Shown here piece after piece: positions 56,394 to 58,680 of a DNA stretch of 64,000 nucleotides. The position numbers were made by a program, and so were the translations under genes. The first letter of the stretch is position 1, and every line of letters starts with the position of its first letter. Below the pieces are notes generated by a model, which was not told the origin of the DNA, did no database searches, and saw only the letters and a list, made by a program, of their open reading frames with translations. The DNA comes from an uncultured Bacillota bacterium (GTDB taxonomy: Bacteria > Bacillota_I > Bacilli_A > RFN20 > CAG-826). The stretch spans positions 244,887 through 308,886 of the forward strand of contig CASEPN010000001.1 of the NCBI GenBank assembly GCA_949289845.1, read 5' to 3'.

Positions 56394-57983
56394 TCAAAAC
56401 CTCCTGCCTACCCACTCGTCCTGATTTGTTACGAGGTTCTCGATATACGAGATTTCGGCGCTGCTCAACTCAAAGAGCGAATAGATGGACTGGTCATCCC
56501 ATTTCCTATCTAAAGGAATCGCTGGAACTAAGGAGAACGTCTTCTTAGACATGTTTTGCGACACTTTGCTCAATCCGGTCATGAACCTGAAGAAGCGTGT
56601 CCTGACATAAGCAAAACAGCGCTTGCACATTTCTTCAGAGTCGAAGGGGCCAACCTCCAACAGGCTTTCAGTGCATGCCTGTCCAGGCATTCCAATCCAA
56701 GGTTCAGATATGATTTTGCTTGGGATTTTCCGCCAAAGAAGTTCGCTGCCAAGGGCCTTTGGTATAAATAGCTTGTATCTCCACAATCCTTCCGATTTCG
56801 AGAATGGATAATCCGCGGGTAGAGTGTTGACGGAGGAGTCTTGCCCCAAGACCTTGATAAAGGCATTGTTGCGCACGGATTCATTAGTTTTGTGATGTGT
56901 CTTGAAGAAATTTGATTCAAGGCCGTAGGGTTTCCTCGATGCAACGAGCGAACTAAATGATTCGTATCCCTTAGATTGGACTTTGGTCATGATTGAAGCG
57001 CAAATTTCGTCTTTTGGGAAAGTTGTTGCGTCTCGGTAGTCGATAGACGCTTTGCTCACAAGATCGTTTTCGTTATGGCGGAAAATGGTTGTGGCTCCTT
57101 GGTAACTTGAATCCCATAGGTAATATCCAACGGCGCCTTCGACGCTGTTGTCGGGGAAACACTGGTGCGAGTCGTTGAATTCGTGAAGGATTCGCAAGTG
57201 CCCAGCCTTGATCAACTGATTTCTTAGGGTTTCTGTCGAAGGTTCTTGGGAGAGCCATTTCATGGGCGTGATCATCAAAAGGTAGTGCGGTCGCATCCGT
57301 ATGGCGTTTAGGACAAACCTGTCGTATATCGGCCTGCTCTTTTGGTGATTCTCTGGATCCGAGCCTGTATGAATGTGGTAGGGAGGATTCCCGATGATTA
57401 CGTCAAATTTCATATGAAAAATTTCCTCGGGTATGTCGGTATGAATGAATTCGTACGCATAGACTTCCTTCCCAATGCGTTCTTCTCTTCCCAAAAGTTC
57501 TCGTCTTGCGGGACAAAAGTGGCATTTCCCATGCTTATCAAATGTGTGGCCGATATCGCGGAAACGAACGTTTCCTTCTTCGCCACACATTTGGACGGCA
57601 GAGTACTTCCCGGACGCGTCCCTTGAGCAGTAAAGGGTCCTTCTGCTCATAAGCGCAGTCAGTTCCGTGATCGCGATTCCGTAGACTTGCCTTTCGAGGA
57701 TATGGGTCCGCCGCTCCTCTGGATTGGGAATCGCCTCCTTTAATCCCTCGAACAAGCGTCGGGCGATTTCGCGGAGAAAGATTCCGGTCTTGCAAGCGGG
57801 GTCGAGGAACGTCTTGCTGGGGTCGGAGAAGATGCCGGGGCAATTATCCTCAAGCATGTCCAGCATCTCGTTCACGAGCCACGGGGGAGTGAAGACTTCG
57901 TCGCTGGATAGGTTCGCGATCGTTTCGAGAATGTCGGTTCCCCTCCGGTTCGCGGGGAGGAGGATGTCCAGCTCTCCGCTCAT
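56394..57983 (-). CDS. Eco57I-type N6-adenine DNA methyltransferase
   Basis: 529 residues from ATG 57983, which overlaps the stop of the upstream methylase gene (ATGA) and has GGGAGG before it. SAM-binding motif I TFLDPACKTGIFLREIARR (59-75) and catalytic motif IV VIIGNPPYHIH (NPPY at 199-202). Residues 150-162 carry Cys/His (KHGKCHFC) that may bind zinc. The rest (about 260-529) is the target-recognition part. Methylates adenine N6. GC content is low (about 48%), indicating horizontal origin. Expression probably depends on translation of the phase-variable gene in front. Confidence 0.9.
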   Translation of the reverse strand: MSGELDILLPANRRGTDILETIANLSSDEVFTPPWLVNEMLDMLEDNCPGIFSDPSKTFLDPACKTGIFLREIARRLFEGLKEAIPNPEERRTHILERQVYGIAITELTALMSRRTLYCSRDASGKYSAVQMCGEEGNVRFRDIGHTFDKHGKCHFCPARRELLGREERIGKEVYAYEFIHTDIPEEIFHMKFDVIIGNPPYHIHTGSDPENHQKSRPIYDRFVLNAIRMRPHYLLMITPMKWLSQEPSTETLRNQLIKAGHLRILHEFNDSHQCFPDNSVEGAVGYYLWDSSYQGATTIFRHNENDLVSKASIDYRDATTFPKDEICASIMTKVQSKGYESFSSLVASRKPYGLESNFFKTHHKTNESVRNNAFIKVLGQDSSVNTLPADYPFSKSEGLWRYKLFIPKALGSELLWRKIPSKIISEPWIGMPGQACTESLLEVGPFDSEEMCKRCFAYVRTRFFRFMTGLSKVSQNMSKKTFSLVPAIPLDRKWDDQSIYSLFELSSAEISYIENLVTNQDEWVGRRF

Positions 57984-58680
57984 TGGAACGCCTCCCGGAG
58001 GGGGACAGGGCCGATATGTCTTGGCTCTGGCGGCACCCATTCGCCTTCTACATCGAATTGCTCATTGTTGAAAAGGTCTCGCTCGGGCGCGCCTTCCACC
58101 ATGTCCTGGTAGCGGATCCCCCTCCCTTCCAGCGTGCCGTCCTCTCCGAGACTCCATTGGAAAAGAGAGACATCCTTCCCTGCCGCGTCCTTGAACGAAA
58201 GCGCGTCCCCTTGCACAAGGTTTGCCTTGAGGATCCCCGCGATGAGAGCTTCCTCCTCGGGCGACATGTCCCGCTTAAGCGAACGCTTCAGGCTCTTCCT
58301 GAATTCGGAAAGGCAGCGTGCCCTGGCTTCTTCGACGTTATCTTGCTGAAGCTCGATCCCGTATGTCGAAAGGGCGACCCGGGCGTGGAGGAAGAAAGAG
58401 GCCTTCCTTACTTCCTCAGAAGACCAGGATTCCTCTCTCTCTCTCTCTCTCTCTCTTCTCTCTCTCTCAGCAGCGCTCTAGCGGTCCTTAGCTTTCTTCG
58501 GAAGATTTCGACGAGGAAGTTCCCGTTCCCGCAGGACGGTTCGAGGAAGGTGGCATCGATCGAGTAGCTTTCCTTCCTGACCAGGTCCAGCATCGCCTTC
58601 ACCTCCCGAGGCGCTGTGAAGACCTCGCCGCTCAAGGCGACTCTCTCGCGGCTCTTGATCTGAGAGGAAGGCTTCTTCAT
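57980..58680 (-). CDS. small companion DNA methylase, phase-variable, out of frame as sequenced
   Basis: Start ATG 58680 (KKPSSQIKSRERVALSGEVFTAPREVKAMLDLV), motif I TFLEPSCGNGNFLVEIFRRKL (44-64), then a (GA) repeat coding for alternating Arg-Glu, after which this frame stops within 10 codons. In the next frame the family sequence resumes: SWSSEEVRKASFFLHARVALSTYGIELQQDNVEEARARC, continuing to the stop at 57980 (KANLVQGDALSFKD...PVPLREAFQ). Removing one GA unit makes the whole gene 699 nt, a clean 232-residue protein. It has motif I but no NPPY, as in small methylase partners of Eco57I-type/GIY-YIG helicase systems. Interpreted as ON at 11 (or 14) CT units and OFF at the observed 12. Confidence 0.8.
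58433..58467. repeat. dinucleotide tract (CT)12-T-(CT)5 inside the methylase gene
   Basis: (CT)12 at 58433-58456, one T, then (CT)5 at 58458-58467. On the coding (minus) strand this is a GA tract. Such tracts change length by slipped-strand mispairing. Confidence 0.9.

Follow-up and report, generated by a model that had tools for sequence, protein, structure and literature searches.

The DNA analysed here is a 64-kb window (C1:244887-308886) of genome G000, an assembly of 1.298 Mb in 4 contigs. The minus strand of this window includes a three-gene restriction-modification (R-M) operon. Its first gene (57980..58680), which runs along 701 nt from an ATG at 58680 to a TGA at 57980 and is frameshifted in the assembly, encodes a small M-like subunit that appears to be phase-variable. 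It is followed by the gene of the partner subunit (56394..57983), an Eco57I-type N6-adenine DNA methyltransferase that scores 83 bits with the Pfam Eco57I profile (PF07669; cutoff 25.3) and contains NPPY, a motif found in 35 of its 35 relatives. The third gene (53391..56393) encodes the restriction subunit, in which a GIY-YIG type (T5orf172/MUG113) nuclease domain and a ResIII helicase are recognized by Pfam above the cutoffs. As had been noticed in the first-pass annotation, the stop codon at 57980 overlaps the start of the Eco57I-type gene: the sequence ATGA (57980..57983) holds both the ATG of the latter (57983-57981) and the TGA of the small gene. Translation of both genes may be coupled by this overlap.

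Homologues of the small gene were found at 49 loci, in Prevotellaceae, Saprospiraceae, Saccharibacteria, Clostridia, Moraxella and others. Small gene, Eco57I-type methyltransferase gene and helicase gene, all three in this order, are present in about 29 of the 50 homologous loci examined, the rest being stretches that end at contig ends or hold another context; operon order is kept in most loci with a long enough stretch. Neither the helicase nor the Eco57I-type protein had a match in PDB sequence searches. Assignment to the Type III R-M systems was considered and rejected: the partner is of Eco57I type (PF07669), PF01555 gave no hit, and the ResIII helicase carries the GIY-YIG-type domain. 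Type IIG enzymes are single polypeptides. The operon was not assigned to this class either, as it consists of three separate genes, though both of its large proteins are hit by a PADLOC Type IIG fusion model (the restriction subunit, 53391..56393, with E=2e-32).

The frame that opens the small gene includes motif I (FLEPSCGNGNFL) and ends at a premature stop at 58408, so that the upstream half, in the OFF state, spans 58408..58680 on the minus strand. The downstream half (57980..58477, minus strand) lies in another frame, reads TYGIELQQDNVEEAR... and has its first ATG at 58267. It had been proposed that motif I precedes a repeat tract and that the same protein family resumes out of frame up to 57980, and we could reproduce both frames. 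The accompanying arithmetic, 701 nt that become 699 nt when one CT unit is removed, is also correct: 11 units restore the frame, and so do 14, gene length not being a multiple of 3 with 9, 10, 12, 13 or 15 units. A change in the number of units hence decides between a full frame and an early stop.

The break is located in a (CT)12 tract, (AG)12 on the coding strand, at 58433..58456, which is the proposed slippage site. These coordinates had been given previously and they hold, the repeat extending furthermore one base out of phase, as TC repeats, from the phase break at 58457 up to 58468 (58457..58468). TRF identified the whole array (58433-58468, 18.5 copies) as its top-scoring period-2 array. 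No other dinucleotide run of the 64-kb window comes near it in length, none of them exceeding 4 units. A pattern search of the whole genome detected (CT)8 or longer at only 3 loci, and Markov models of order 1-5 predict between 0.0002 and 0.02 occurrences of (CT)8 or (AG)8 by chance per 1.298-Mb genome. There is thus a hypermutable simple repeat, beyond chance expectation, within a reading frame, as is characteristic of SSR-mediated phase-variable R-M systems. The count of 12 units is an assembly value and may be off by one unit; the OFF state, as called from length arithmetic, would stand even if the odd base in the array were an error.

Other repeats are present in the window. Upstream of the operon (58821..58901), TTGCATAACGTGCAA occurs three times without mismatch, at an exact spacing of 33 bp, and these copies could possibly be regulator sites. 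Four near-identical copies of the TTGCATAACGTGCAA type, also 33 bp apart, are found in genome G022 at the start of a candidate AAA_14/DUF4143-like ATPase gene. An AAA_14/DUF4143 ATPase gene of the window (60172-61743) contains at its 5′ end a second triple array (61541-61626), with 33-bp spacing and core TTGCGTTTTCCGCAA, and a 22-bp tandem repeat, AAGTTGAGTGAAGTTCAGAGTG, is present in 2.7 copies at 46211-46268.

The locus was compared with that of a sister species, G031 (contig CASFDV010000003.1). The small gene of G031 contains (AG)9 within an intact frame of 227 aa. DNA identity around the tract is 98-100% in most 60-bp steps, and the array of the window is 17 nt longer, odd base included: (AG)5-A-(AG)12 vs (AG)9. 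As both tracts differ by whole units plus one base and the frame is open in G031, ON alleles exist; natural alleles of other tract length, an in-frame one among them, are therefore found between species. The tract is accordingly not of a fixed length with a frame that is always broken. All 3 loci with (CT)8 or longer in G000 also bear a tract in G031, with whole-unit length differences at 2 of them. The repeat was not found in small-gene homologues at the loci examined outside the genus, and therefore the switch would be a local acquisition. When the tract plus its flanks was searched for exactly in IMG/VR, no match was found; the relatives in that collection are distant (≤43% over long matches).

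Taking into account that dinucleotide tracts are prone to error in assembly, the true repeat could be in frame and the small gene simply intact. We judge this very unlikely, since long AG tracts are present at each locus in two independently assembled species; moreover, were the error confined to the unit count, the tract would still be prone to slippage and its reading as a switch would be kept. The small gene might alternatively be a recently frameshifted pseudogene, the repeat having appeared or lengthened by chance and thereby inactivated the gene in this lineage. The broken frame of the assembly and the extra odd base with respect to G031 fit this explanation. The G031 copy is nevertheless intact with a shorter tract, and apart from the break at the tract the small gene contains no further stop or frameshift. 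Both halves are in addition under purifying selection: dN/dS between G000 and G031 is 0.105 upstream of the tract and 0.20 downstream of it, where the synonymous excess is significant (Fisher p=6e-6). With values between 0.10 and 0.20 on either side of the tract, the small gene is not a decaying pseudogene, an explanation that we consider improbable also in view of a second locus described below.

A block (54062..58080) that takes in the Eco57I gene and roughly two thirds of the helicase gene is present in G031 as a diverged allele (dS about 1.9 over the former gene and about 2.5 over the latter), between flanks that are 91-100% identical. This allele replacement looks like a swap of specificity, presumably brought about by recombination, in which the switch was retained.

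The repeat had been described as lying inside a DNA methylase gene. Its location within the gene is correct, but the methylase label calls for a correction: motif I is found in 23 of 23 homologues of the small protein, and motif IV ([DNS]PP[YFW]) in none of the 23. The small protein thus does not have the motif set of a catalytic DNA methyltransferase, and, as the toggled protein lacks the catalytic NPPY, the gene is better read as that of an M-like subunit of an R-M complex. In the partner, a Lys replaces the first Gly of motif I in 35 of 35 sequences (motif I is FLDPACKTG). The AlphaFold model of the small subunit (pLDDT 78, pTM 0.76) shows strands and helices that fit the first half of a methyltransferase fold. 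A Foldseek search with this model gave no significant match, and fold identity therefore rests on motifs and secondary structure. The tract sits in a variable stretch after motif I in the family alignment (23 homologues) and near the end of the predicted helix that follows motif I in the model. The protein does not end before the tract in this family, all 23 aligned homologues continuing well past it. The small protein is probably an obligate, non-catalytic subunit rather than the methylase that performs catalysis; its need for activity is deduced only from the motif pattern and from the conservation of the operon.

Elsewhere in the genome (C1:608612-608631; L009 8001-8020), a C5-methyltransferase gene is interrupted by a (CT)10 tract, as determined by pattern search and frame analysis. 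This gene adjoins genes of a Sau3AI-like protein, of an unknown protein and of a PLD/SNF2 helicase (with a PADLOC PbeA-like N-terminus). The tract is (AG)10 in G000 and G031 and (AG)9 in G022, and the gene is out of frame in the three species, G000 and G031 sharing one register and G022 having the other. For the half beyond the tract, pairwise dN/dS is 0.22, 0.15 and 0.15 (about 0.15 against G022), and purifying selection reaches significance in two pairs (Fisher p=5e-4 and 1e-24). Three decayed C5 genes would not be expected to keep such low dN/dS values. The same pattern, in different registers, in three species is what argues further against the small gene being a pseudogene. In G039, which belongs to another genus, a C5 homologue contains (AG)10 at a different site and in frame; judging from its position, this tract is an independent gain.

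The C5 gene also bears on whether the frame break could be bypassed by programmed ribosomal frameshifting, or whether both halves of the small gene work as separate polypeptides. Split methyltransferases exist. However, as the C5 tract occurs in two registers (G000 vs G022), no single ribosomal frameshift rule mends both; the first ATG of the downstream half of the small gene, at 58267, comes only after motif II; and G031 has one intact frame. Of all the alternatives to a switch, bypass or splitting appears to us the most remote.

We consider it highly likely that the tract is a slipped-strand phase-variation switch of the three-gene N6-adenine R-M operon that toggles it via a non-catalytic subunit. 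The earlier proposal, that dinucleotide slippage toggles this system, gains support from the ON allele of G031, from selection on the downstream half, from the second methyltransferase switch and from the AG-tract OFF/ON methylase alleles known in M. mycoides (PMC3498834), once the identity of the switched protein has been corrected. Gains and losses of AG units during replication would shift the frame of the first gene of the operon: 11 or 14 units would give the full subunit, and with 12, as in G000, translation would end soon after the tract. The small subunit, with an AdoMet fold and lacking motif IV, probably has to form a complex with the Eco57I-type methyltransferase, and this complex would be what the helicase-nuclease depends on. 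Loss of the subunit would thus turn off methylation and restriction together, the cell being spared self-cutting. The OFF state may be reinforced if the ATGA overlap no longer couples translation of the two genes. As the gene is out of frame in G000 and in frame in G031, the cell very probably toggles defence and DNA marks at random. Slippage in living cells, the need for the subunit and the effects on phage and gene expression are what we infer from these data.

A third tract, (CT)11 in G000 and 10 units in G031, was found by pattern search (C2:212002-212023; L010 8001-8022) 100 nt upstream of a lipoprotein gene with Flg_new repeats, the gene on its other side being a divergent one of 401 aa. 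A reading of this tract as a promoter spacer is not supported in G000 and G031, since it misfits the promoter form. In the family, (CT)9 or longer is present in 36 of 220 genomes. TTGA is located no more than 2 nt upstream in 30 of the 38 non-coding tracts examined and in none of 76 short CT runs; a -10-like hexamer follows most non-coding tracts, with spacers mostly of 15, 17 or 19 bp. Just upstream of 22 of those 38 tracts there is a GCAnT...rTGC palindrome, which we take to resemble CIRCE, the HrcA operator. A pattern search for the combined palindrome/CT elements retrieved 23 places in 18 genomes, the reversed-pattern control giving 0. Many of the (CT)n elements of the family precede genes of secreted proteins or lipoproteins. 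At loci L138-L167 and L250-L272, a CIRCE-like palindrome, TTGACT, a (CT)n spacer and a TAGAAT-like box succeed one another, mostly upstream of exported proteins, and orthologous copies of the promoter-like elements differ by whole units. These family elements are possibly phase-variable promoters controlled by a heat-shock operator, promoter activity being deduced from consensus only. Switches in spacer length are known, e.g., those of hifA/hifB and porA (PMC3899988).

A broader proposal can be made tentatively, and we hold it with less than even confidence. Of a methyltransferase in two parts, the repeat would toggle the one that binds AdoMet, the small subunit having motif I without motif IV and the partner having NPPY and a Lys in motif I, in such a way that one slippage event ends both methylation and restriction; (CT)n would be a general switch of the lineage, acting in two methyltransferase genes and, family-wide, as the -35/-10 spacer of promoters for exported proteins. 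Most known methylase switches driven by repeats come from pathogens. The small genome of this uncultured commensal-type, gut-type lineage has two of them, at loci conserved in the sister species, and in relatives of the family this repeat forms part of promoter-like elements of exported proteins. If correct, a non-catalytic obligate subunit would explain how restriction is turned off without self-cutting. No paper on phase variation by SSRs in gut MAGs came up in the literature searches.

Dinucleotide tracts in methylase genes are known switches, as the first-pass annotation had stated. In Mycoplasma mycoides subsp. capri, the methyltransferase gene of the Type III system MmyCI is frameshifted and inactive with AG12 and in frame and active with AG10 (PMC3498834). 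The operon described here resembles MmyCI in that an AG tract lies inside a methyltransferase gene with stops close after it in the other frames (PMC3498834). It differs in that the catalytic Mod of a Type III system is toggled there and a small subunit without motif IV here, within a three-gene operon that includes an Eco57I-type methyltransferase and a GIY-YIG helicase. In Helicobacter pylori, the C5-methyltransferase gene hpyAVIBM has AG repeats in its reading frame and is paralleled by the second switch, the C5 gene at C1:608612-608631 (PMC3411764). The sequence context of hpyAVIBM is nevertheless another, its tract has 4-5 units and a cognate restriction enzyme is absent (PMC3411764), whereas the C5 gene has 9-10 units and adjoins the Sau3AI-like protein and the PLD/SNF2 helicase. 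Switching of an R-M enzyme is also shared with the phase-variable Type IIG system of Campylobacter jejuni, whose switching is reported to affect methylation and gene expression (PMC4889913); in the window, each of the three components, nuclease-helicase, methyltransferase and small subunit, has its own gene. The PADLOC model REase_MTase_IIG (PDLC03626) is likewise related to this operon, one profile covering the helicase (131-822) and the Eco57I methyltransferase (209-517), but it describes a 1359-aa fusion and the small M-like subunit gene has no match in it. With the precedents of MmyCI and hpyAVIBM, the mechanism is therefore already known; what is new is the type of R-M system, the non-catalytic nature of the switched subunit and the lineage-wide (CT)n repertoire.
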